From Streptomyces sp. ICC1 (GTDB taxonomy: Bacteria > Actinomycetota > Actinomycetes > Streptomycetales > Streptomycetaceae): 64,000 nt of DNA. Position numbers and translations under genes: made by a program. This document shows positions 18,362-61,961 of the stretch, one piece after another. The DNA lies in contig NZ_CP030287.1 in NCBI RefSeq assembly GCF_003287935.1, positions 7,448,869 to 7,512,868 of the forward strand, in the 5' to 3' direction. The notes under the pieces were generated by a model. That model worked only from the letters and a program-made list of their open reading frames with translations, was not told the origin of the DNA and did no database searches. Each line of letters starts with the position of its first letter. Position 1 is the stretch's first letter.

Positions 18362-19375
18362 GTGATCGACTCCGCCGTCTACCGCGACGGCGTGCGCATC
18401 GCCTCCCCCGTCACCCTCGCCGACACCTTCCGCCAACTCCGCGAACAGCCGGACGGCATGGCCTGGATCGGCCTGCACCGCCCGACGGAATCCGAACTCC
18501 ACTCCCTGGCAGCCGAGTTCAACCTCCACCCGCTCTCCATCGAAGACGCCCTGGAGGCCCACCAGCGCCCCAAACTGGAGCGCTACGGAGACACCCTCTT
18601 CGTCGTCCTGCGCGCCGCCCGCTACCTGGACGCACTGGAGGAGGTCGACTTCGGCGAGCTCCACATCTTCGTGGGCCCCGACTTCCTGATCACGGTCCGC
18701 CACGGCGCCGCCCCGGACCTCTCGGCCGTCCGCCGGCGAATGGAGAAGTCCCCCGAACTCCTCTCCCTCGGCCCTGAGGCCGCCCTCTACGCCATCCTCG
18801 ACGCGGTGGTCGACGGCTACGCCCCGGTCGTCGAGGGCGTCCAGATCGACATGGACGAGATCGAGACCGAGGTCTTCAGCGGCGACCCGGAGGTCTCCCG
18901 CCGCATCTACGAACTCTCCCGCGAAATGGTCGAGTTCCAGCGTGCCACCCGCCCCCTGGTCGGCATGCTCCACAGCCTGATGGCGGGCTTCGCGAAGTAC
19001 GGCACGGACGAGGAACTCCAGCGCTACCTCCGCGACGTGGCGGACCACGTCACCCACACCAGCGAACGCGTGGACGGCTTCCGCCAGGCCCTCACGGAAA
19101 TCCTGACGGTCAACGCCACCCTGGTGTCCCAACAACAGAACGCCGAAATGCGCGCATTGGCCGAAGCGGGCTTCGAACAGAACGAAGAAATCAAAAAAAT
19201 CTCCTCGTGGGCCGCCATCCTCTTTGCACCCACACTCGTGGGAACCATCTACGGCATGAACTTCGAAGACATGCCGGAGCTGAAGTGGGCGGGCGGCTAC
19301 CCCTTCGCAGTCGGCTTGATGGGCGTGGTTTGCGTAAGTTTGTACATGATTTTCAAGCGTCGGGACTGGCTCTAG
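18362..19375 (+). CDS. corA: CorA-type magnesium/cobalt transporter, start uncertain
   Basis: From the GTG at 18362 the product has 337 residues: a large cytoplasmic alpha/beta domain, long stalk helices and two C-terminal membrane segments separated by the YGMNFEDMPE loop, the GMN signature of the CorA pore, ending in a basic KRRDWL tail. The family is complete from about VIDSAVYRDGVR onward. No ribosome-binding site precedes the GTG and the reading frame stays open upstream through the protease antisense strand, so the natural N-terminus may have been lost at the 9-bp repeat. A second CorA lies at 60879-61961. Confidence 0.82.
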   Translation: MIDSAVYRDGVRIASPVTLADTFRQLREQPDGMAWIGLHRPTESELHSLAAEFNLHPLSIEDALEAHQRPKLERYGDTLFVVLRAARYLDALEEVDFGELHIFVGPDFLITVRHGAAPDLSAVRRRMEKSPELLSLGPEAALYAILDAVVDGYAPVVEGVQIDMDEIETEVFSGDPEVSRRIYELSREMVEFQRATRPLVGMLHSLMAGFAKYGTDEELQRYLRDVADHVTHTSERVDGFRQALTEILTVNATLVSQQQNAEMRALAEAGFEQNEEIKKISSWAAILFAPTLVGTIYGMNFEDMPELKWAGGYPFAVGLMGVVCVSLYMIFKRRDWL

Positions 19376-20056
19376 GGGTCGACCGGCTCCACCAGCGCAG
19401 CGTACATAGTTTGCTGTTGCATCTCCGGAATGGGTACTAGTATGAGGCGCTGGGGAGCCCCTGGGGAGAAGTGATGCAAGTGATCTCGTCTACCTGCCTC
19501 CGGCAAGGCCCTGAACAGGACTTTTACCCTCCTGACGTCGCTGGGGAGAATCCGGGGAGAATCGGCTGACGACCCAGGTCCTGCGTCTGCGGTTTCGCCC
19601 TGTCCGCTTTCCTGGTCAACATCTCAGCGTGGCCCTTGCTGCACCCGCAACGGATCACAGACAGTGGCATTGCTGCTGAACGGCGGCACCATCGGCCCGC
19701 TCTGTACGCCTCCCGTTGTCGGCGCTGAACCGGCCCCACCCACCACCCGCAAAGGCCGCCGACGTCAGCATGTCTGTCGGAGTGGTCTGCTACCCGATGG
19801 TGTCCCGCCGAGGACACCATCGGTGGCGTTCGTCGATGCGAGGCCGGATGAAGCGGGAAGTGCTGGTGGTGACGAGTGGTGTTCAGGTCAGCCCAGCGTC
19901 TGCGCGTCCAGGTCTCATACACAAGCGGCCGACAGCCCGTGCCTCCTGCTCAGGGCAAGAACGGGCTGCGACAGCCGGCGCACCGCCGCTACTCACTCCG
20001 GGCGCGGGCTCGCACATCGTGGCCCGCATCACTTCTTCGGCCGCCATAATGGAGGC
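19376..20056. other. Non-coding stretch with direct repeats at island edge
   Basis: No frame here has convincing codon bias, start and ribosome-binding site. GC content falls relative to the neighbours, and homopolymer-poor mixed sequence continues to 20056. It holds the GGGGAG repeat pairs described separately. It separates CorA from the AbiEii and SNF2 genes and reads like the edge of an integrated element whose integrase is gone. Confidence 0.5.
19451..19560. repeat. Two pairs of GGGGAG direct repeats, 11-bp period
   Basis: TGGGGAG occurs at 19451 and 19462, and again at 19542 with CGGGGAG at 19553, each pair spaced by 11 bases. One helical turn spacing suggests binding sites for a protein that sits on one face of DNA, for example arm-type sites of a tyrosine recombinase; no recombinase gene is present, so this is inference. 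Confidence 0.45.
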
Positions 20057-20449
20057 ATGTCCTCCAGCCCACAGCATCCTGCGCCCGCGCCGAGGGGCCT
20101 CTCCGGCGCGGAAGCCGAGGACCTCGCGCTGTACCGGGAGAAGTTCCGGCGCCGTCTGCCGGAATCGCTGGACGAGCTGCATGGGCCGGCGCGCGGTGTC
20201 GTAGAGCTGCCGCTGCACCTGGCCTGGTCCGGGATGACCTCGTACGACCTGGGCAAGCCTCGCCAGCGCATGGGCCTGTACCGCACCGTCCTGCACGAGG
20301 GCCTGCACGACGACCTGCCCCTCTACCTCAATCAGGATCTGCTCCTCCAGCTGTGGCCCGTGCTGCGCACCCTCGTCGGTCGCACCGTGCGCACCGTGTG
20401 GGAGGACGCCTTCCCCCAGCTCGCCTCCCGCACCCGGGCAGCCGCGTGA
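20057..20449 (+). CDS. Helical partner protein of AbiEii nucleotidyltransferase
   Basis: A 130-residue soluble, mainly helical protein. It begins MSSSPQHPAPAPRGLSGAEA and contains YREKFRRRLPESLDELHGP and LYRTVLHEGLHDDLPLYLNQ. The ATG at 20057 follows TGGAGG directly. Its TGA overlaps the GTG of the following nucleotidyltransferase gene in GTGA, so the two are translationally coupled. I see no helix-turn-helix like that of the classical AbiEi antitoxin. By position it is the candidate antitoxin or regulator; that role is inferred. Confidence 0.8.
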   Translation: MSSSPQHPAPAPRGLSGAEAEDLALYREKFRRRLPESLDELHGPARGVVELPLHLAWSGMTSYDLGKPRQRMGLYRTVLHEGLHDDLPLYLNQDLLLQLWPVLRTLVGRTVRTVWEDAFPQLASRTRAAA

Positions 20450-21123
20450 CGGACATGCCGGATCTGCACATGCGGCTCCTGGCGGATGTGATTGCCCTCG
20501 GCTCGCCGTATCCCTTAGTCCTCACCGGCGGGTATGCCGTGAGGGCGCACCGCCTCGTGAACCGTCCCAGCCAGGACCTCGATGTCGCCACGGAGAACCC
20601 GGCGCCCATGGCCGACATCGCGGCCGCAGTCTGTCGCGGCCTCGAGGCTCGGGGCTGGAAAGTGCATGCACTGGAAACTGCCCCGCTGTCCGCTCGCTTC
20701 ACCGTGACCGACCCGGTCACCGGGCAGGACTGTGAAGTCGACATCCTGAAGGAAGTCTTCTGGCGGCCCGTCTCCCAGAGCCCGTACGGGCCCGTCCTCG
20801 CGGAGGAGGACGTGATCGGGACCAAGGTTCGCGCCCTCGCCGACCGCGGAGCGCCCCGCGACCTGATCGACGTGTTCGCTGCCTCCCGCCGCTGGACCAA
20901 TACCGAGCTTGAGGAGTTCGGCCGCCGCCACGCCCGTGGCCGCTTCGAGCGCGAGGACCTGCAGGCGAACCTCACGGGCGCCGAGTGGACCGACGACGAA
21001 GCCTTCGCCGCCTACGGCCTGGACGAGACCACCATCGCCGCCCTTCGTACCTGGGCCGTGGAGTGGGCCGATGACCTCGCGGCCCGACTCCCCGAAGAGT
21101 CCGATGATCCGGACATCGACTGA
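20446..21123 (+). CDS. AbiEii/AbiGii-type nucleotidyltransferase
   Basis: The 225-residue product has the core of the AbiEii nucleotidyltransferase family: VLTGGYAVRAHRLV (residues 25-38) and RPSQDLDVAT with the metal-binding Asp44 and Asp46. CEVDILKEVFW and EDVIGTKVRALADRGAPRDL match the later family motifs, including the conserved Lys and the RDLxD region. AbiEii toxins are the toxic half of type IV toxin-antitoxin and abortive-infection systems. The GTG start overlaps the upstream stop by four bases. The last residues are highly acidic. Confidence 0.87.
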   Translation: MTDMPDLHMRLLADVIALGSPYPLVLTGGYAVRAHRLVNRPSQDLDVATENPAPMADIAAAVCRGLEARGWKVHALETAPLSARFTVTDPVTGQDCEVDILKEVFWRPVSQSPYGPVLAEEDVIGTKVRALADRGAPRDLIDVFAASRRWTNTELEEFGRRHARGRFEREDLQANLTGAEWTDDEAFAAYGLDETTIAALRTWAVEWADDLAARLPEESDDPDID

Positions 21124-21467
21124 TCGAATCCGGACGAGACCGCATCTGCAGGCTGCCGACGAGACCGACCAGCCCCGAGAGCTCCGACTCACGCGGCTCA
21201 GACACCCGGACGGGCTACGAAACCCGGCATCACGCCGCGTCCGCACATGTCGAGGGCTGCGACAGCCGTGGCCGGTAGGGCCATGCGCTCCCGAGCGCCT
21301 TTGCCGCCCCGCGAAAGGTCGCGAGGGCAGAGGATACCTGCTGCGGGCGGCGTCGGGACCGTGTGTGCCCCGAAGGACGGTGGCCGCCACAACCGGGTTT
21401 GAGCCGGGCATACCGGCAGCGCCATGATGGGGCCGTTCGAGTGGCCCCGGTGCGGTAGGAGCAGCAG
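21124..21467. other. Intergenic region between AbiEii pair and SNF2 operon
   Basis: About 340 bases without a supported gene, RNA or repeat. The last 12 bases carry the GGAG ribosome-binding site of the next gene. A promoter for the three-gene operon should lie here, but I see no confident -35/-10 pair. Confidence 0.5.
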
Positions 21468-23711
21468 ATGCGGCGAGACGGGAAGACGGCCCCGTCCGAT
21501 CTCCAGCTGAAGATCGTGCTGCACGGCACAAGACCGCCCCTGTGGCGGCGCCTCGTGCTGCCGTCCGATACCTCGCTCGGGACGCTGCACGACGCCATCC
21601 AGGTCGCCTTCGGATGGCACGGTGGCCATCTGCATCTCTTCACCGACGAGTTCGGCCGGGGGTACGGCGATGCGGCCCGACTCACCGGCATCGACCTCGG
21701 CTTCGGCCACGAGGTCGGCGACGAGGACGCCACCGCGCTCGGCGACGTGCTGGCCGAGGAGAAGGCACGGCTGCGCTACGTCTACGACTTCGGCGACGAC
21801 TGGGAGCACGGGATCACGCTGGAGAAGACACTGCCGTGCCCGGTCGACGCGGAGCGGGCGGTGCGCTGCGTCGGCGGCCGTCGCGCCGACGTACCGGCCG
21901 AGGACATCGGCGGCGTGCGGGGGCTGGCTGAGGTGCTGGAGTTCCTCGGCACCCCGGACGGGGCAGGGGATGGCCCGTACGGCGAGCTTGTCGCCGAGCT
22001 GCGGGCGGCCGGTTACGATCCGGCGGCCTTCGACCGGGACGGGATCACCGCGCGGCTGGCCCGGCTGACGCCGGACACGGTGTCCGGCAATGCGAAGCCG
22101 CCGACCGGTGAAGGGGCCGGGCGCGGCGGTGTCCGTCGGCTGACCGCCGAGGACGTGGCGTTGTGTACCTGTGGGCAGTGCGGGGTGGGCGATCCCGTCG
22201 ATGCCGGAGTCGACGGACCGGCCGAGGATGTGCCCGTGCTGCGCCCGGTGACGCTGGCTCCGCGGGAGAACCTTGTCGCTGCCGTGCGGGGTGTTCCGCT
22301 CTTCGACGCTGCGCTGCGGCTCGCCGCCTGGTGCCGCGAGGGACGGCAGGTCACCGCTGGCCGGGTACTGCGGCCCGCGCTCGCCCGTGAGGCCGTCGAG
22401 GAGATCCAGCTGTGGAAACTGGCCGGCGACGACTCGCCGTATGCCGATGCCGTCGCGAGGGCTCGTGCGTTGAAATCGCTGCGCAGCGCCAAGGACGTGG
22501 CCGTTCTCGATGATCCGTGGTGGCTCGCCGTGGATGGCGGAATGATCACGATCAGCGGTGGCCGCGCGTGGGGTGGCGCGGCAACCGACTTCACCGGTGA
22601 GGGCCTCCTGGATTTCTGGGCCGCCACGATGGGCGATCTGCTGGAGGAGATCGGTGAGACGGGGGTGCTGAACGGGTGGCACGGTGAGTTGGGCGAGCTG
22701 ACGGCCGAGATCGCCGACGGACTGGTCGGCCTGCTGTACGACGACCCGGACGACGCCTGGGTGGATGTCGACGACCTGCGTGCGAAGGCCCGCGAGGTGG
22801 GCGAGAACGGGCCGGAGTTCGATCTCTTCCAGGCGATGTTCGCGGCGTCCTTCCAGGGACTCGGGGAAAGGCTCGCCCTGCTGGGCGCGGTGGAGTACGA
22901 GCCCGGTGACGGGGACGATTCGGCCGAGGAGACGCTGCGCACATTCCTGAACGCCATGGTCGGAGAGGAGCTGGGCGGCGGTTCGGGAACCTCGACGGCA
23001 GCGTCGGCCCCGTCGTGGGACGACCAGCGCGGGCACCGCATGCGGCTCACCCCACTCGGCCGCTACGGGCTCCGCGCGTACCTGATGGAGTGCGGTGTGC
23101 CCGCGCCGCTGCTCGGCGAGTACGCCGAAGCGGACGCCGACGCTCTGCTCCAGGGGCTCCTGGGCTACTCCCCCGACGAGATGCGCCGGGAGGTCGAAGG
23201 GTGGCTGGCACACCGTTCGGCGACGGATGCCGCGGTAGGGCTGCTCGACGCATGCGCGGGAGACGGCTCCGAGGCAGCGTCGAAGCGCGCCGTGGCCCAA
23301 CTGGTGCTGGCCGACCTCGACGACCCCCGGGCACTGCGCGTGCTGCGCAAGGCAGCGGACTCCGACGTCGAGGGGTGCCGCCAGGTGGCCACCACGACCC
23401 TGGGCGCACGCCTTGGGGCAGAAGCGCGCGTGGACCCGGAGCGGGCGGAGGAGGCCGGACTGTGGCTGCTCATCGACGGACTGTCGATCCTCGCCGGTGC
23501 TCAGGAGAGCGAGGAACTGACCCGCGGCTTCCTGGAGAACTGGAACACGGCGCCGGAGGCGCTCGAACAGCGGGTGGACGAGCTGTGGCGAGTGGAGCAC
23601 CCAGCCACCGCCCAAGTGCTCGCCGAACTGGGTGAGGGCCTGCGCGGCGTCGACAAGCGGCTGGCCAAACGCATGCGTACCGCGGCGAACAAGGCCCACT
23701 CCCGCCGGTGA
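21468..23711 (+). CDS. pRiA4b ORF-3 family protein with long C-terminal region
   Basis: The first 190 residues of this 747-residue protein are a pRiA4b ORF-3 (IS1096 TnpR passenger-like) domain: LQLKIVLHGTRPPLWRRLVL, TLHDAIQVAFGWHGGHLHLF and YVYDFGDDWEHGITLEKTLP are its hallmarks. The rest is alpha-helical and acidic; it includes LTPLGRYGLRAYLMECG and repeats rich in Leu/Ala that may be HEAT-like. Biochemical function is unknown. GGAG precedes the ATG at 21468. The stop overlaps the start of the SNF2 helicase gene in GTGA, so the two proteins are made together. Confidence 0.83.
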   Translation: MRRDGKTAPSDLQLKIVLHGTRPPLWRRLVLPSDTSLGTLHDAIQVAFGWHGGHLHLFTDEFGRGYGDAARLTGIDLGFGHEVGDEDATALGDVLAEEKARLRYVYDFGDDWEHGITLEKTLPCPVDAERAVRCVGGRRADVPAEDIGGVRGLAEVLEFLGTPDGAGDGPYGELVAELRAAGYDPAAFDRDGITARLARLTPDTVSGNAKPPTGEGAGRGGVRRLTAEDVALCTCGQCGVGDPVDAGVDGPAEDVPVLRPVTLAPRENLVAAVRGVPLFDAALRLAAWCREGRQVTAGRVLRPALAREAVEEIQLWKLAGDDSPYADAVARARALKSLRSAKDVAVLDDPWWLAVDGGMITISGGRAWGGAATDFTGEGLLDFWAATMGDLLEEIGETGVLNGWHGELGELTAEIADGLVGLLYDDPDDAWVDVDDLRAKAREVGENGPEFDLFQAMFAASFQGLGERLALLGAVEYEPGDGDDSAEETLRTFLNAMVGEELGGGSGTSTAASAPSWDDQRGHRMRLTPLGRYGLRAYLMECGVPAPLLGEYAEADADALLQGLLGYSPDEMRREVEGWLAHRSATDAAVGLLDACAGDGSEAASKRAVAQLVLADLDDPRALRVLRKAADSDVEGCRQVATTTLGARLGAEARVDPERAEEAGLWLLIDGLSILAGAQESEELTRGFLENWNTAPEALEQRVDELWRVEHPATAQVLAELGEGLRGVDKRLAKRMRTAANKAHSRR

Positions 23712-26674
23712 CGGCAGGGGCGAAACCTGCTGGTGGAAGAAGACGCGGTGAAGACCGCCTGGACGACGGTGAGGCGAAAAAGAGAGTGGCACGAGTCCTC
23801 GTACGGGAGCAGGGCACGGGCACGAGGAGCGTGCCGCCATTGGCCACACCGGAGTCGGCGGCCTGGGCCCGGAGTCTGCTCGACGACGGCTGGGCGGCGG
23901 TCTTCCTGCCCGGCGAGCCCGCCCGCCTCGGCCGGTTGCTGCTCTGGCAGCCCGCCGGGGCAGCCGCCGCCGAGGGCACGGCACCCGCGGGCGTCGAGGC
24001 CGAGGCGGCGGAGCTCGTGCTGCCGCACGGCCGCTCGGTCAGACGGCGCAGGGCGGAGGGTTACGCGCTGCCCGTCGCCCTCGCTGTCGCCGCGCTGTCC
24101 GGGGCACAGCCACCACATCCATCCGCCGCCGCCTGGCAGGCCGCCGCCCGCTTCGCGCTCCGGCTGCTCGCCGACGGCCGCCTCCACCCGGCCCTCACCC
24201 CCGCCGGCTACGACACCTGGCAGGCGGGCCCCTTCACCGCAGCCCAGCGTCGGACGCTGGACGCCCTCGCCGCCGCCTTCCCGCCCCACGGCCACTGCCT
24301 GCCGGAGCCGGGTCCTGCCCCGCTGCGGATCGCCGAACCGGCCGCGCTGGTGCGCCGGTTCTGCGACGCGGTCGCCGATGCCCTGGTCCGTACCCCCGCC
24401 GCTCCGCTCGCCATGGGAACCCTGCCGTACGCCTGGCGCGAGACGCGTGCCGTGCCCACCCTGCACGAGTGGGCCGAGGAGACCGCCGCCGCGTTCACCG
24501 CCGACGTCCGGATCTCGCTGCGGGTCGACGTACCCGAGGGACGCCGCCGGCACTTCCGGGCCGTCCTCCAGCTGCACACCGCTGCGGATCCGGCGCTCGT
24601 CGTGGAGGCCGCACAGCTGTGGAGCGAGCCGGCCGAGACCGAGCGCCTGCTCGGCCCGCGCGCCGAAACCGAGACGCTGCTCGCACTGCGCCGCGGCGCC
24701 CACGTCTGGCCACCGCTCGACCGGCTGCTGAAGGACGCCGCTCCGGACCAGCTGCGGCTGACCGACGACGAAGCCTTCGACCTGCTGGGCGACGCCACCG
24801 ACACGCTGCGCGCCGCCGGTGTCGACGTGCACTGGCCGCGCGAGCTCGTCAAGGCACTGACCGCGACCGCGGAGATCGGGCAACGCACCGCGCCCGGCTC
24901 CAGCACGGGCGGCATGCTCGACGCCGACACCCTCCTCGACTTCCGCTGGCAGCTCTCGCTCGGCGGAGACCCGCTTACCGAGGCCGAGATGGACGCCCTC
25001 GCGGAGACGCGTCGCCCCCTCGTCCGGCTGCGCGACCAGTGGGTGGTCGCCGACCCGAAGCTGGTGGCCCGCGCCCGGCGCCGCCGGATGGAACCGCTCA
25101 CTCCCATGGAGGCGCTGGGCGCCGCGCTGACCGGCGAAGCGGAGCGGGACGGGGAGACCTTTCGCTGCACGGCGGTCGGTGCGCTCGGCGGCCTCGTCGC
25201 CCGTATCCGCGACCCCGAATCCCGCACCCCCGCCCCGCAGCCCTCCGCACTGAAGGCCACGCTGCGCGACTACCAGAAACGGGGCCTCGCCTGGCTGGCC
25301 GAGATGTGCGAGCTCGGTCTCGGCGGCTGCCTCGCCGACGACATGGGCCTGGGCAAGACCATCACCCTGCTCGCTCTGCACCTGCACCGCCAGACCGACC
25401 CCGCCACCGCGGGCCCCACGCTCGTCGTCTGCCCCGCCTCGCTGCTCGGCAACTGGCAGCGCGAGGCAGCCAGGTTCGCACCGTCCACCCCCGTGCGCCG
25501 CTACCACGGCGGCGACCGCCACCTGAAAGACCTCGCCGACGACGAGATCGTCCTGGTCACCTACGGGGTCCTGCGCCGCGACCGGGAGACCCTCGCCGAG
25601 AACGCCTGGTCGCTGATCGCCGCCGACGAGGCCCAGCACGTCAAGAACCCCTACGCCGTCACCGCCCGCGAGCTGCGCGCCCTGCCCACCCGCGCCCGCG
25701 TCGCCCTCACCGGCACTCCCGTGGAGAACAACCTCTCCGAACTGTGGGCGCTCCTCGACTGGACCACTCCCGGACTCCTCGGACCGCTCACCGCCTTCCG
25801 CGACCGCCACGCCCGCGCGATCGAGTCGGGCGAGGACCCGCAGGCCGTCGAACGGCTGTCCCGTCTCGTCCGCCCGTTCCTGCTGCGCCGCAGGAAGTCC
25901 GACCCGGGCATCGCCCCCGAACTGCCCGCCAAGACCGAGACCGACCGCGTCGTGCCGCTGACCGCCGAGCAGGCAAGTCTGTACGAGGCGGTGGTCCGCG
26001 AAACCATGGCGAAGATCAACGAAGCCGAGGGCATCGCCCGCCGCGGCCTGATCCTGAAGCTCCTCACCGCACTGAAGCAGATCTGCAACCACCCCGCCCA
26101 ATATTTGAAAGAGCACAGCCTGCGCCAGTCCACACCGCTGCACGGCCGCTCCGGCAAACTGGCGTTGCTCGACGAACTGGTCGACACCATCACCGCCGAA
26201 GGCGAGTCGGTGTTGGTCTTCACCCAGTACAAGCAGATGGCGAGCCTGCTGGAGAAGCACCTCGCGGAACGAGGCGTCCCCACCCTCTTCCTACACGGCG
26301 GCACCCCCGTCACCGCGCGCGAGGAGATGGTGGACCGCTTCCAGCGCGGCGAGGTGCCGGTGTTCCTGCTCTCCCTGAAGGCCGCGGGCACCGGCCTGAA
26401 CCTCACCCGTGCCACCCATGTCGTGCACTACGACCGCTGGTGGAACCCGGCGGTTGAGGACCAGGCCACCGACCGCGCCTACCGCATCGGCCAGGATAGA
26501 CCGGTACAGGTCCACAAACTCATCGCGGAGGGGACCGTGGAGGACAAGGTGGCGAAGCTTCTCGAATCCAAGCGCGCGCTCGCCGACGCCGTGGTCGGCT
26601 CCGGTGAGGCGGCTCTGACCGAACTGTCCGACGCCGATCTCGCCGAACTCGTAGCGCTGGGGAGGCAGGAATGA
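23708..26674 (+). CDS. SNF2-family DEAD/DEAH helicase
   Basis: A 988-residue Swi2/Snf2 ATPase. The first ~500 residues are an accessory domain of the bacterial SNF2 type. The motor follows: DDMGLGKTIT (Walker A, about residue 543), DEAQ (motif II, about 640), LTGTPVENNLSELWALLDW (motif III), and in the second RecA domain SVLVFTQYK, SLKAAGTGLNLTRA and DRAYRIGQ (motif VI, about 921). Such enzymes translocate on double-stranded DNA and remodel DNA-protein complexes. It overlaps both neighbours by four bases (GTGA upstream, ATGA downstream). Confidence 0.93.
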   Translation: MTAGAKPAGGRRRGEDRLDDGEAKKRVARVLVREQGTGTRSVPPLATPESAAWARSLLDDGWAAVFLPGEPARLGRLLLWQPAGAAAAEGTAPAGVEAEAAELVLPHGRSVRRRRAEGYALPVALAVAALSGAQPPHPSAAAWQAAARFALRLLADGRLHPALTPAGYDTWQAGPFTAAQRRTLDALAAAFPPHGHCLPEPGPAPLRIAEPAALVRRFCDAVADALVRTPAAPLAMGTLPYAWRETRAVPTLHEWAEETAAAFTADVRISLRVDVPEGRRRHFRAVLQLHTAADPALVVEAAQLWSEPAETERLLGPRAETETLLALRRGAHVWPPLDRLLKDAAPDQLRLTDDEAFDLLGDATDTLRAAGVDVHWPRELVKALTATAEIGQRTAPGSSTGGMLDADTLLDFRWQLSLGGDPLTEAEMDALAETRRPLVRLRDQWVVADPKLVARARRRRMEPLTPMEALGAALTGEAERDGETFRCTAVGALGGLVARIRDPESRTPAPQPSALKATLRDYQKRGLAWLAEMCELGLGGCLADDMGLGKTITLLALHLHRQTDPATAGPTLVVCPASLLGNWQREAARFAPSTPVRRYHGGDRHLKDLADDEIVLVTYGVLRRDRETLAENAWSLIAADEAQHVKNPYAVTARELRALPTRARVALTGTPVENNLSELWALLDWTTPGLLGPLTAFRDRHARAIESGEDPQAVERLSRLVRPFLLRRRKSDPGIAPELPAKTETDRVVPLTAEQASLYEAVVRETMAKINEAEGIARRGLILKLLTALKQICNHPAQYLKEHSLRQSTPLHGRSGKLALLDELVDTITAEGESVLVFTQYKQMASLLEKHLAERGVPTLFLHGGTPVTAREEMVDRFQRGEVPVFLLSLKAAGTGLNLTRATHVVHYDRWWNPAVEDQATDRAYRIGQDRPVQVHKLIAEGTVEDKVAKLLESKRALADAVVGSGEAALTELSDADLAELVALGRQE

Positions 26675-27477
26675 GCCCCTCGATCCCCGGCCCGCGCCGC
26701 ACGCCCGCCCGCGGCAGGCGTGCCTTCGCCACGACCTGGTGGGGCCAGGCATGGGTGACGGCCCTGGAGGACTCCACCCTGGACTCGGGACGCCTGTCCC
26801 GCGGACGCACCTACGCCCGCCAGGGCATGGTAGGCCCGACCGCGATCGCCCCCGGCCAGGTCAAAGCAGCCGTCAGGGGCAGCAGGCCCCGCCCCTACCG
26901 CTCCGCCGTCCACCTGCCCGTCCTCACCGACGCCCAGTGGGACACCCTCCTCGACACCATCTCAGCCCGGGCCGGGCATCTCGCCGCACTCCTCGACGGC
27001 GATATGCCCGCCGAACTCGTCGACGACGCCCGCCACGCTGGCATCCCCCTGCTCCCGCAGCCCACCGAACTCGACCCCGAATGCTCCTGCCCCGACTGGG
27101 GCTACCCCTGCAAACACGCCGCCGCGCTCTGCTACGCCATCGCCTCCACCATCGACGCCGACCCCTTCGTGGTGTTCGCGCTGCGCGGCCGCGGACGGGA
27201 GGAGGTCCTCGCCCAGCTGCGCGCCCGCCGTGCGGCCGCCCAAGCGGCCTCCACCCCACCGGCCCCAGCCGGCCTCCCGGCCGTCGGCGCCTATGCGGCC
27301 TGGGCTGCCCTGGCCGAACACACTCCACCCCTTCCGGAGCTCCCCGAACCGGCCCTTGTGTATAAGGCACAGTCCCCGAGCTGCGCCCGGACCCGCCCGG
27401 GGCCCCGGGGCTCCGCACCCGACCCCCGCGCCTCAATCGCCGGCGGGGCTGGATCTTCCAGCCCCGCCGGCGATTGA
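26671..27477 (+). CDS. SWIM zinc-finger protein, C-terminus replaced by repeat
   Basis: The 268-residue product contains ATTWWGQAWVTALE and SGRLSRGRTYARQG, typical N-terminal motifs of SWIM proteins found beside SNF2 helicases, then the CxCxnCxH finger (Cys138, Cys140, Cys147, His149 in CSCPDWGYPCKH). SWIM domains bind DNA or protein partners. Relatives are usually longer. From about residue 230 (27360) the frame runs into a common streptomycete intergenic repeat and ends at a TGA inside its hairpin, so the C-terminus looks lost. The ATG overlaps the helicase stop. Confidence 0.8.
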   Translation: MSPSIPGPRRTPARGRRAFATTWWGQAWVTALEDSTLDSGRLSRGRTYARQGMVGPTAIAPGQVKAAVRGSRPRPYRSAVHLPVLTDAQWDTLLDTISARAGHLAALLDGDMPAELVDDARHAGIPLLPQPTELDPECSCPDWGYPCKHAAALCYAIASTIDADPFVVFALRGRGREEVLAQLRARRAAAQAASTPPAPAGLPAVGAYAAWAALAEHTPPLPELPEPALVYKAQSPSCARTRPGPRGSAPDPRASIAGGAGSSSPAGD

Positions 27478-27479
27478 GG
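27431..27479. terminator. Strong bidirectional hairpin repeat
   Basis: CCTCAATCGCCGGCGGGGCT and its complement form a perfect 22-bp stem with a five-base loop. The same hairpin with its upstream CCCCGAGCTGCGCCCGG leader is, from memory, a widespread streptomycete intergenic repeat. It lies between convergent genes (SWIM gene and amidase) and would terminate both. Confidence 0.8.
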
Positions 27480-27532
27480 CGGTCTGTTCAGCCGCGGGGG
27501 CGGGGCGGCTCGGGGTGGTGCAGCCGGACAGG

Positions 27533-28951
27533 CTACGGGCGGCCCTGGAGTTTGGCCGAGCTCGTGCGGGTCGGGGGGAGTGCGCCGTAGAGGAGGCGGC
27601 CCGGGCATTCCGTGGCGAAGCCGTCGCGGTGGCCCGAGATGACGTTCAGGCGGACGTTGCTGCCCTTCGCGTAGAGGTTGCCGCCGCCCGAGCGGAGCGT
27701 GGTCTTCGCGCGGGGGTCCGCCCCGAAGAGGCCCAGCTTCCAGGCCGTGAGGCGGGCCACCGCGTCGACCGCCGGCTTCGGCGGGGCCGTCGAGGAGAAG
27801 GTGCCGATCACCGCCACTCCCATGCTGTCCGTGTTGAAGCCCATGGTGTGCGCGCCGAGCACCGGCTTGGCGACACCGCCCGCCCGGCCCTCGTACACCG
27901 TGCCGCACTTGTCGACGGCGAAGTTGTAGCCGATGTCCCGCCAGCCGCTGCTGACCACGTGGTAGCGGTACAGGCTGCGCAGCACCGCCGGGGCGTCCTT
28001 GCAGGCGTAGTTGTTGCCGGAGGCGGTGTGGTGGACGAAGGCCGCCTTGACCGTGTTCGTGTAGACGAACGCCTTCTCGCGCAGGCTCTCGTCGGCGCCC
28101 CAGCCCTTGCGGGTGACGATCCGCGGGCGCGGGCCGATGTACGGGCTGGCGGCGGCGAGGGTGTCGTCGGCGAGGATCGCGTCGGCGGTGGAGTCGGCCT
28201 TGTCGAGCGGGGCGATCTCGTTGGCTCCCAGGGGTGCCATCGGGACGTTGGCGGAGGAGGACTCCGTCATCTCCATCGTCATGCCGGGCAGCAGGGCCGC
28301 CTCGCCCTTGTCGTCGGCCGGCTCGGACGTGCCGTTCTTGCCGTCCGCCGCGGCCTGGCCGGAGTCGCCGGGGTCGACGAGTTCGATCCGCAGGCCCTTG
28401 GGGAGTCGGCCGCCGCCCGTGCGGCCGCCCTTGTCGCCCTGGTCCGCCTGGTCGGCCTGGACGCGGACCTCGACGCCGTCGGACTCGCCGACCCACAGCG
28501 GGGCGGTGCTGCCGCGGACGCGGCCGGAGCCGCGTTCGCTCGTGCCGGGGTCGGCGGCGTGTTCGCCGTTGTGGGTTTCGACGTCCTGCCAGTCGGACCA
28601 GGTCGCCGTGGACGCGGAGCGGGTGCGGACCTGGACCCGGCCCTGGAGCTGGGCGCCGGCGTCGTCCCAGACGACGCCGACGAGCGAGAACGTCTCGACC
28701 TCGCGCGCGGCCAGGCCCCGGGCCTCGGGAAGCCGGGGCGAGGCACTCATGCCGGGGACGCCCGGGGAGCGGTCCGCCGCGGGTCCCACGGGGACCAGCG
28801 GCAGCGACTGGGTGGACCCGGCGGGGGTCACGGGGGCGGCCTCCGCCGTGAGCACGGACGGAGTGGCCAGGGCCGTAGTGGGGAGCGCGAGCGGCAGGGC
28901 CAGTGCGGCAGCCGTCGCGACGCCGATCGAGGAAGCAAGGAATGCACGCAT
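27533..28951 (-). CDS. Secreted peptidoglycan recognition protein/amidase
   Basis: The 472-residue exported protein starts with the signal peptide RAFLASSIGVATAAALAL ending near ALATPS. The C-terminal ~200 residues are an Amidase_2/PGRP domain: GWGADESLREK, AAFVHHTASGNNY (zinc His), VLGAHTMGFNTDSMGVAVIG and VISGHRDGFATECPG (zinc His and Cys). It would cleave the N-acetylmuramoyl-L-alanine bond or bind peptidoglycan. The region between is a variable beta-rich segment with DWQDVE. The ATG at 28951 is chosen from the signal peptide; its ribosome-binding site is poor. Confidence 0.88.
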   Translation of the reverse strand: MRAFLASSIGVATAAALALPLALPTTALATPSVLTAEAAPVTPAGSTQSLPLVPVGPAADRSPGVPGMSASPRLPEARGLAAREVETFSLVGVVWDDAGAQLQGRVQVRTRSASTATWSDWQDVETHNGEHAADPGTSERGSGRVRGSTAPLWVGESDGVEVRVQADQADQGDKGGRTGGGRLPKGLRIELVDPGDSGQAAADGKNGTSEPADDKGEAALLPGMTMEMTESSSANVPMAPLGANEIAPLDKADSTADAILADDTLAAASPYIGPRPRIVTRKGWGADESLREKAFVYTNTVKAAFVHHTASGNNYACKDAPAVLRSLYRYHVVSSGWRDIGYNFAVDKCGTVYEGRAGGVAKPVLGAHTMGFNTDSMGVAVIGTFSSTAPPKPAVDAVARLTAWKLGLFGADPRAKTTLRSGGGNLYAKGSNVRLNVISGHRDGFATECPGRLLYGALPPTRTSSAKLQGRP

Positions 28952-53988: not shown

Positions 53989-53992
53989 GATG

Positions 53993-54065
53993 AGCCCTTT
54001 AACGGAATCGAACCGTTGACCTTCTCCTTACCATGGAGACGCTCTACCGACTGAGCTAAAAGGGC
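53993..54065 (-). tRNA. tRNA-Thr (GGT)
   Basis: The minus strand folds as a full cloverleaf: acceptor GCCCTTT/AAAGGGC, D-arm GCTCAGTCGGTAGAGC, anticodon stem TCTCC/GGAGA with loop ATGGTAA (anticodon GGT, reading ACC), T-arm AACGG TTCGATT CCGTT and discriminator U. No CCA is encoded. It lies five bases downstream of the 5S rRNA on the same strand and is followed by a strong terminator. Confidence 0.95.
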
Positions 54066-54763
54066 GGGTTGTTCGGCGGCGTCCTACTCTCCCACAGGGT
54101 CCCCCCTGCAGTACCATCGGCGCTGAAAGGCTTAGCTTCCGGGTTCGGAATGTAAACCGGGCGTTTCCCTAACGCTATGACCACCGAAACACTATTATAC
54201 ACAGAGTAGAGCGTCGTCAGCTTCGGAGGAGTATGAGAGGCAGACTCCTCGGCGCGCAGGCCCATCACGACCTCGTCCAGGAACTCCCCGCACACCCAGG
54301 CCGCCCCGCGCAGGGTCCCCTCCAGGGTGAACCCGGCCGCGCTCGCCGCACGGATCATGGCGGCGTTGTCGGCGAGGGTGTCCACCTGGAGCCGGTGCAG
54401 CCCGCGCACGGAGAACCCGTAGCGGCACAGCAGCCGCACGACCTCCGCGCCCAGCCCGCGCCCGCGGCTGCCGGGGCGCAGGGAGATGCCCAGGTGCGCG
54501 GAGCGGTTGTGCGGGTCGACGGCCCAGAGCAGGGCCTCGCCCGCCAGTTCGCCGGTGGCCCGCTCCACGACGGAGAAGACGGCGACGTCGTCGGAGGGCT
54601 CGCGCGGCTCGTACGGCGAGTGCCCGCTCGCCGCGCCCACCGGCCGCCACGGCCGGGTGTCGCCGCGCGAACGCGTCAGGACGTCCTCGTACAGCTCGGC
54701 GTGGAGCACGGCCACGTCATCCGCGTGCCGGGCGCGCAGCCCGGCCAGTTCTCCCTGGATCAT
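54056..54763 (-). CDS. GNAT acetyltransferase running into 5S rRNA
   Basis: The first ~175 residues form a GNAT domain: [40 protein letters not shown] (acetyl-CoA loop RGRGLG), [20 protein letters not shown] and [20 protein letters not shown]. After [11 protein letters not shown] the frame continues for about 55 residues through unusual sequence and the 5S and tRNA genes before a stop at 54056. The genuine gene should end near 54225; its own stop seems to have been lost at a joint with the 5S gene. Confidence 0.65.
54071..54190 (-). rRNA. rrf: 5S ribosomal RNA without adjacent 23S
   Basis: The minus strand reads GTTTCGGTGGTCATAGCGTT, then CATTCCGAACCCGGAAGCTA, and ends GTAGGACGCCGCCGAAC, a typical actinobacterial 5S rRNA of about 120 nt whose ends pair. 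GGTTTACATT appears to hold one more T than the GGTTACATT I remember as usual. No 23S sequence lies upstream; instead the acetyltransferase reading frame abuts it. tRNA-Thr follows directly. Confidence 0.9.
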
Positions 54764-60878: not shown

Positions 60879-61961
60879 TCAGAGCCAGCCGTTGCGCCGG
60901 AATCCCCGGTGGATCACGAAGCAGGCGACGGCCATCACGCCGATGACGAAGGGGTACCCGTAAGTCCAGTGCAGTTCCGGCATGTTGTCGAAGTTCATGC
61001 CGTACACCCCGCAGACCATCGTCGGGACGGCGACGATGGCCGCCCATGCGGTGATCTTGCGCATGTCCTCGTTCTGGGCGACGGTCACCTGCGCGAGATG
61101 GGCCTGGAGGATGGAGTCGAGGAGGGCGTCGTACGCGCCGATCTGGTCGGTGGCGCGGGTGAGGTGGTCGGCGACGTCGCGGAAGTAGGTGCGCATCTCC
61201 GGCGGGATGACCGGTATCGGCAGCGTGCTCAGCTGCTGGAGCGGCCGGCTCAGCGGGGCCACCGCCCGCCGCAGTTCCAGCAGTTCGCGCTTGAGCTGGT
61301 AGATCCGGCCCGCGTCGCCGCGCCCGCCGTGCTCGCTGAACACCATGGTCTCGACGGCGTCTATGTCGTTCTGCACGGCGTCCGTGACGGCCACGTACTC
61401 GTCGACCACGTGGTCGGCGATCGCGTGCAGGACGGCGACCGGCCCCTTGGCGAGGTGGTCGGGGGTGGCTTCCAGCTCCTCGCGGACCGATCCGAGGGTG
61501 CCGCGGCCCCCGTGCCGGATGGTGATGACGAAGTCGGCGCCGGCGAAGGCCATGAGCTCGCCGCCCTCGACGACATCGCTGGTGGCGGTCAGCTCCTCGT
61601 GCTCCACGTAGCGCACGGTCTTGAGCACCGCGAAGAGGGTCTCGTCGTAGCGCTCGATCTTGGGCCGCTGGTGCGCGTGGACCGCGTCCTCGACGGCGAG
61701 CGGATGCAGGCCGAACAGCTCGGCGAGTCCGGCGAGCTCGGTCTGCGAGGGCTCGTGGAGGCCGATCCAGACGAAGCCGTCGCCCGTCTTGCGGACCAGG
61801 CGCAGCGCCTCGGCGGCGTCGGCGCAGCCGTCCTGGCGCACGCCGTTCCGGTAGACGATGCAGTTGACGACGGCGCTGCCGAGCGGAGAGCGCGCCGGGT
61901 GGCTGAGGTCGACGGTGCGCCGGTAGCCGCGGCGCACGGCCCGGCGCAGGTTGCTGAACAT
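60879..61961 (-). CDS. corA: CorA-type magnesium/cobalt transporter
   Basis: The 360-residue transporter begins MFSNLRRAVRRGYRRTVDLS, then the cytoplasmic domain (CIVYRNGVRQDGC, FVWIGLHEPSQTELAGLAEL), stalk helices and two terminal membrane segments around YGMNFDNMPELHWTYGYPF. It shows what a complete N-terminus of this family looks like, by contrast with the copy at 18362. AAGGGGAG lies about 15 bases before the ATG, or seven before an in-frame TTG two codons upstream, which may be the true start. Confidence 0.92.
   Translation of the reverse strand: MFSNLRRAVRRGYRRTVDLSHPARSPLGSAVVNCIVYRNGVRQDGCADAAEALRLVRKTGDGFVWIGLHEPSQTELAGLAELFGLHPLAVEDAVHAHQRPKIERYDETLFAVLKTVRYVEHEELTATSDVVEGGELMAFAGADFVITIRHGGRGTLGSVREELEATPDHLAKGPVAVLHAIADHVVDEYVAVTDAVQNDIDAVETMVFSEHGGRGDAGRIYQLKRELLELRRAVAPLSRPLQQLSTLPIPVIPPEMRTYFRDVADHLTRATDQIGAYDALLDSILQAHLAQVTVAQNEDMRKITAWAAIVAVPTMVCGVYGMNFDNMPELHWTYGYPFVIGVMAVACFVIHRGFRRNGWL

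Follow-up and report, generated by a model that had tools for sequence, protein, structure and literature searches.

Do the five genes that lie together behind corA in Streptomyces sp. ICC1 make up one undescribed defense system? The window we analyzed is a stretch of 64,000 nucleotides (positions 7448869-7512868) from the strain's 9.03-Mb single contig (genome completeness 100), and the five genes, here P1 to P5, encode a small helical protein, an AbiEii-type nucleotidyltransferase, a PRiA4_ORF3-domain protein, an SNF2-family ATPase, and a SWIM zinc-finger protein. A preliminary description, made from the letters alone, had taken them for a single island of coupled genes and a candidate defense or mobile-element-control locus. 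We find it probable instead that two independent accessory units have gathered at the integration-prone 3' end of corA. Unit 1 (P1-P2) would be a toxin-antitoxin pair of the MenAT/AbiE kind, and unit 2 (P3-P5) an accessory SNF2-SWIM operon with a broken SWIM gene. The features, in window coordinates, are as follows.

18362..19375, + strand: corA, CorA-type Mg2+ transporter; a record sharing the CorA start is named CorA and has PF01544
about 19179-19375, + strand: last ~65 codons of corA, a repeated attachment-like segment with copies in other genomes and two more in its own genome
19448..19564, no strand: CTGGGGAG direct repeats just 3' of corA, possible recombinase arm sites
19926..21162, + strand: DNA block of the AbiEii pair (outer limits), 84-87% identity with 10 close relatives at unrelated loci
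20057..20449, + strand: P1, 130-residue helical partner, probable antitoxin, above no family cut-off
20446..21123, + strand: P2, AbiEii/MenT-type nucleotidyltransferase, probable toxin, with the AbiEii domain and conserved residues
21468..23711, + strand: P3, PRiA4_ORF3 domain (residues about 1-200) and a helical, HEAT-like C-terminal part
23708..26674, + strand: P4, SNF2-family ATPase (NF058637, SCO1167/SCO6262 family) with helicase motifs present
26671..27355, + strand: 5' part of the P5 SWIM gene, still homologous to intact orthologs, CxC...CxH zinc-finger motif kept
27356..27477, + strand: non-homologous tail of the P5 frame, running past the breakpoint into a terminator-like palindrome
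27384-27526: terminator-like palindrome, a dispersed repeat

Separate distribution of the two units

The five genes and their 4-base overlaps (GTGA for P1/P2 and P3/P4, ATGA for P4/P5, the P5 frame spanning 26671-27477) are exactly as first described, and Pfam confirmed the domain calls AbiEii, pRiA4b-ORF3, SNF2, and SWIM. To follow the genes across the genus we used a sample of 121 genomes for protein-family relatives and one of 392 genomes for DNA matches to the SWIM ortholog. Ten of the 11 loci with close P2 relatives were fetched together with one P2 paralog from the strain's own genome and eight P4 loci, and gene presence was scored at E 1e-8 within 8.5-20 kb. P1 stands beside P2 at all 11 AbiEii-pair loci, and P3, SNF2, and SWIM are found at none of them. 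Conversely, the eight SNF2 loci of other genomes all have SWIM and lack P1 and P2, as do the 21 SWIM-ortholog loci of other genomes within the same distance.

The DNA divides in the same way. Similarity to the window in unit 1 starts at 19926-20040 and ends at 21123-21162. For unit 2, it starts in close relatives at 21384-21420 when P3 is present or at 23742-23782 when it is not, and ends at 27305-27355. In place of a single island there are thus two separate conserved blocks, about 19926-21162 and 21384-27355, which occur at different loci. Conservation of the five-gene neighborhood was checked, and the locus proved to be an accessory one, outside the syntenic core. Nor do its housekeeping-type flanks form a fixed synteny. 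In searches of 31 genomes each, corA and the gene at 27533, 3' of P5 (amidase-like by reading of the sequence, without a family search), are far apart or on different contigs in the relatives matching both.

Composition of the units

P2 matches AbiEii (PF08843) with E 1e-14 and 55.5 bits against a cut-off of 22.5. An alignment of 29 sequences, the window included, shows conservation of G28-G29, R40, S42, D44-x-D46, R84, K127, R138-D139, and D142, with S42, D44-x-D46, R84, K127, D139, and D142 kept in at least 95% of them. They match the Ser/Thr acceptor, D-x-D, K, R, and D residues given for the MenT1 toxin in excerpts of two reports (PMC11375011, PMC10435456). Of 33 loci, 32 (all but L061) have a P1-like gene that overlaps P2 or directly adjoins it. 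P1 itself has no AbiEi-type match up to E 1 in Pfam, PADLOC, or NCBIfam and reaches no family cut-off there. Its predicted structure has a mean predicted local distance difference test (pLDDT) score of 82 (31 sequences), and no match was found in a PDB fold search with the model. Some databases name its relatives 'transcriptional regulator'. An excerpt of PMC11375011 assigns the four MenA antitoxins to three independent families, and a further unrelated partner such as P1 is therefore plausible. Most likely, P1 and P2 form a toxin-antitoxin pair with an antitoxin of another type than AbiEi. The earlier assignment to AbiE holds for the toxin gene but not for the partner. P2 would act as a nucleotidyltransferase on an RNA acceptor (tRNA for the characterized MenT relatives) and P1 would neutralize it, with the likely effect of stabilizing mobile DNA that carries the pair and perhaps of abortive infection.

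Close relatives of P2 (86-90% identical) are encoded in 11 other genomes of the 121, and some relative, fragments included, in 75. Relatives are present in 74 plasmid records, 58 of them from Streptomyces, and in none of 50,697 phage records. A tyrosine-recombinase-like frame lies ~1.6-2.4 kb from the pair in three of the 10 fetched close relatives (L073, L078, L081). The strain's own genome has further copies of the pair (L002-L004), one with a near-full-length P2 relative (62%) and two partial, each with an upstream P1-like gene.

In unit 2, the PRiA4_ORF3 match (E 2e-43) covers only the N-terminal part of P3. P4 has DUF3670, SNF2, and Helicase_C domains with the GKT, DEAQ, and VI motifs, and P5 has a SWIM domain (PF04434, E 4e-7) with its CSC...CKH motif. 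The NCBIfam model for the SCO1167/SCO6262 helicase, NF058637, gives P4 1470.2 bits against a cut-off of 1200. Its best solved relative is the Sulfolobus-type SNF2/Rad54 helicase 1z63. Close relatives of P4 (86-91%) occur in seven other genomes of the smaller sample, with one more at 68%, but a member of the family at E 1e-100 is present in 117 of the 121. The SNF2 gene had been placed in an accessory island; accessory is true of the window's clade and not of the family. The window-type SWIM ortholog is found in 22 of 392 genomes (about 6%), window genome included, among the listed matches with at least 73% identity over at least 144 bases. SNF2 adjoins SWIM at 21 of these 22 loci, the window included (L246 has no SNF2). 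P3 accompanies them at six, one copy broken and one a remnant; among the 16 loci counted without P3, L256 carries an upstream match to the PRiA4 domain that is weak (32%).

A scan for P3 relatives retained 80 loci. The match spans at least 700 residues in 18, of which 14 have SNF2 and SWIM adjacent. Eight of these modules run in one direction (L136-L143) and six have a divergent P3 (L145-L149, L151). The partial loci L152 and L153 also belong to the module, and one Streptomyces plasmid holds its divergent-P3 form. The other 60 loci have shorter matches, nearly all to the PRiA4 domain alone, and lack the module, although a distantly related SNF2 (40%) and a similarly distant AbiEii pair lie nearby in L182. 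A quick tree of SNF2 (59 rows, midpoint root, two row pairs being duplicates) separates a window-type clade of 28 rows, a divergent-P3 clade of 10, and the genus-wide paralogs with 20, each with a Shimodaira-Hasegawa-like approximate likelihood ratio test (SH-aLRT) value of 100; L031, a long row, stands apart. P3 goes with two of these clades, and its architecture was not found near the 20 sampled genus-wide paralogs. Judged from these comparisons, unit 2 is an accessory relative, sporadic in occurrence, of the SCO1167/SCO6262 helicase-SWIM pair found throughout the genus. The alignment of phrog_29996, by its N-terminal part to SWIM and by its C-terminal part to SNF2, favors a joint function for P4 and P5.

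Some P3 match is present in 117 of the 121 genomes, mostly to the C-terminal ~500 residues. A ~500-residue protein homologous to this part (G000:C1:3976052-3976771 and P0214) has relatives in most genus genomes searched and no match in a Pfam search. A tyrosine-recombinase-like frame (L071 5635-5745, G100) lies shortly 3' of a divergent PRiA4-SNF2-SWIM operon.

The corA 3' end and the broken SWIM gene

Segments of the corA 3' end recur 3' of an intact corA in other genomes, at about 3 kb (G007), 11 kb (G006), and 25 kb (G004, short and weak), and in BR123 (short and weak). The strain's own genome has extra copies at 6403509-6403705 and 6267998-6268181. The better copies cover CorA residues 273-337. 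What they enclose differs: a 2,940-residue open frame in G006, a 528-residue gene and a gene judged transposase-like by eye in G007, and P3 fragments with an intact SWIM gene and no SNF2 in BR123. Because it is duplicated around cargo in several genomes, the corA 3' end looks like an integration hotspot. Two genomes resemble the window in their order of features. G103 has corA, repeat DNA, P1, and then a P2 missing ~28 residues, the D-x-D motif among them. In G053, corA and repeat DNA are followed by a different pair at 34-40% identity. The site seems to have been used repeatedly, with cargo decaying by deletion. The duplication of the corA 3' end around different cargo was noted in the strain's own genome and at L120, L122, L123, and L152.

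The repeats noted earlier at the edges of the island exist. Some other genomes, too, have those at about 19448-19564 (CTGGGGAG), either 3' of corA or next to a copy of its 3' end. The palindrome at 27384-27526, however, is not specific to the island, since it is a dispersed repeat with 57 matches in its own genome (self and both-strand matches included).

At the other end of unit 2, the SWIM gene is incomplete. SNF2 and SWIM are adjacent as described, but P5 has 268 residues, compared with 411-430 in 17 other frames (15 distinct loci, two genomes appearing twice). Homology stops at about residue 228 (base 27355), and the last 40 or so residues are unrelated. The BR123 locus aligns to window positions 26623-27355 and then, switching within 3 bases, to positions 6402519-6403136 of the ICC1 genome (93.5% in both parts). 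The missing half is thus in the same genome, 1.07 Mb away, followed by CTGGGGAG repeats and a copy of the corA 3' end; the left side of the two units in the window is likewise the corA 3' end. No listed match in 391 other genus genomes crosses the junction at 27355. Both halves are on the same strand, and a single inversion therefore does not account for their separation. The gene appears to have been cut by a chromosome rearrangement, and for this reason unit 2 is probably impaired or inactive in this strain.

How firmly do two independent units at corA stand against other explanations? That all five genes are one undescribed defense system is hardly credible. They lie together in the window, and remnants of AbiEii and P3 are found together in S. 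atratus and S. yangpuensis, but each unit is without the other at nearly every other locus examined, and two sampled genomes that have both (G021 and G090) carry them at distant places. It is quite unlikely, too, that the SWIM truncation and the 1.07-Mb separation are an assembly artifact. The junction appears in no other genome among the matches listed and abuts a palindrome dispersed in the genome. The assembly is nevertheless one complete contig, both halves end cleanly against DNA that is unrelated and apparently intergenic, and the distal half sits beside a corA 3'-end copy of its own, as expected of a split element.

Besides the features that would fit such an artifact, several observations weigh against two independent units brought together by integration. 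The AbiEii fragment beside P3 in S. atratus and an S. yangpuensis protein record that joins short pieces of CorA, AbiEii (~11 residues, by eye only), and P3 show either more than one encounter of the units or their joint inheritance. Given these remnants, there may be some link between P1-P2 and P3-SNF2-SWIM. Four of the 18 long P3 loci (L144, L150, L155, L208) have no SNF2-SWIM within 9 kb at E 1e-5. A simple motif scan, the only recombinase search made in the window, found no recombinase gene, and among the genomes compared, whose corA flanks are unlike at the DNA level, no clean empty site was seen. We still favor two independent units at corA.

Elsewhere in the window, the conserved corA GMN region is matched once more, at 60928-61004 on the minus strand (77 bases with 81% DNA identity); this is probably a corA paralog. 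A 5S rRNA and a tRNA-Thr are on the minus strand at 53992-54188, and the window has no further rRNA match.

Possible functions and known relatives

P4 is predicted to be an ATP-driven translocase of double-stranded DNA, which the SWIM zinc-finger protein would guide and the PRiA4-HEAT protein would regulate or target. Together they may strip or remodel proteins on DNA, the candidate targets being RNA polymerase or foreign nucleoprotein.

Defense genes are close to one relative. In S. atratus JCM 3386 (L136 999-8669), NsnA, NsnB, and NsnC (E 5e-135, 6e-114, and 3e-88), the Menshen set, lie about 3 kb upstream of PRiA4-SNF2-SWIM. A DruE-like helicase fragment is also upstream, and an AbiEii fragment lies between the defense set and the operon. 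We surveyed 71 called neighbors of 13 loci with defense models at E 1e-15. One complete known system was recognized (from tallies, 25 of the 36 matched families being listed). Matches were few and scattered over 36 families of at most three members each, and metabolic families were prominent, for example PF00155 aminotransferases (11 of 71). A defense neighborhood is therefore not a general feature of these loci. The earlier proposal of a defense or mobile-element-control locus finds partial support in the involvement of mobile DNA, the AbiEii-type toxin gene, and the one relative near NsnABC, but the five genes are not one system.

A housekeeping-like DNA-transaction role for unit 2 is somewhat ahead of defense, itself a possible role. 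The chance that unit 2 is an accessory version of a housekeeping DNA-transaction pair, serving in transcription conflict or stress response and not in defense, is a little short of even. The near genus-wide family of P4 and its passing of the SCO1167/SCO6262 equivalog model agree with this. So do excerpts of three reports: the sigma-E regulon of envelope stress includes sco6262-6263 (PMC6767563), YwqA of B. subtilis is assigned to a group of RNA polymerase-interacting translocases (PMC7385302), and in Deinococcus deserti one of the genes most induced by radiation is a SWIM gene (PMC5552922). The window copy, however, falls in an accessory clade apart, some members of which have a partner of their own, P3, and its SWIM ortholog is rare in the genus. 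That P3-SNF2-SWIM alone is an undescribed anti-mobile-element defense, the AbiEii pair being a bystander, is doubtful. Its sporadic occurrence, the recurrence of the three genes in two SNF2 lineages with different orientation, the plasmid copy, the NsnABC set and DruE-like fragment in S. atratus, and the match of the P4 ATPase part to PADLOC profiles of Zorya, DISARM, and Dpd all speak for it. Against it are the single complete system and the metabolic families among the neighbors, scores of P4 far under the ZorD, DrmD, and DpdE cut-offs, the 16 of 22 window-type loci without P3, and the lack of any nuclease, protease, or membrane effector recognized among the five genes in the Pfam search. 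We regard as unlikely the fuller proposal that the module is an undescribed three-component DNA-translocase system against mobile elements, which arose in two SNF2 lineages and travels both on plasmids and as cargo of elements at the corA 3' end, here with a toxin-antitoxin pair of a new antitoxin family.

What looks like a five-gene defense island can thus consist of two unrelated cargo units that share an insertion hotspot. The analysis adds a putative antitoxin family, unmatched in the libraries used, for AbiEii/MenT toxins, which are common in this genus, and it delineates a recurrent PRiA4-HEAT/SNF2/SWIM module that comes in two gene arrangements. The function of the module is directly testable, and since the window's own SWIM gene is broken, such tests should use an intact relative.

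With Zorya, DISARM, and Dpd, P4 shares the SNF2 ATPase domain, but it is below every curated NCBIfam cut-off (ZorD 305 of 1500, DrmD 73 of 610, DpdE 46 of 500), and the other four proteins have no match to other components of these systems. The MenAT/AbiE systems (DUF1814/PF08843) are closer to unit 1. P2 shares their AbiEii domain and conserved nucleotidyltransferase residues, and they likewise have a small partner gene directly upstream with overlapping frames and plasmid copies. AbiE proper differs in its winged-helix AbiEi/COG5340 antitoxin, whereas P1 represents a 130-residue family without such a match in Pfam, NCBIfam, or PADLOC. P3 differs from PRiA4_ORF3 proteins (PF07929; solved relative 2i1s) by its fused part of ~500 residues. 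SWIM-associated SWI2/SNF2 ATPases are linked to mobile systems in general in an excerpt of PMC5512222. Unit 2 is most like the SCO1167/SCO6262 helicase and SWIM pair of this SsoRad54-like group, with P4 above the family cut-off and the SWIM gene directly after it. It differs from that pair as an accessory paralog clade, sometimes with a PRiA4-HEAT partner, and in this genome by its truncated SWIM.

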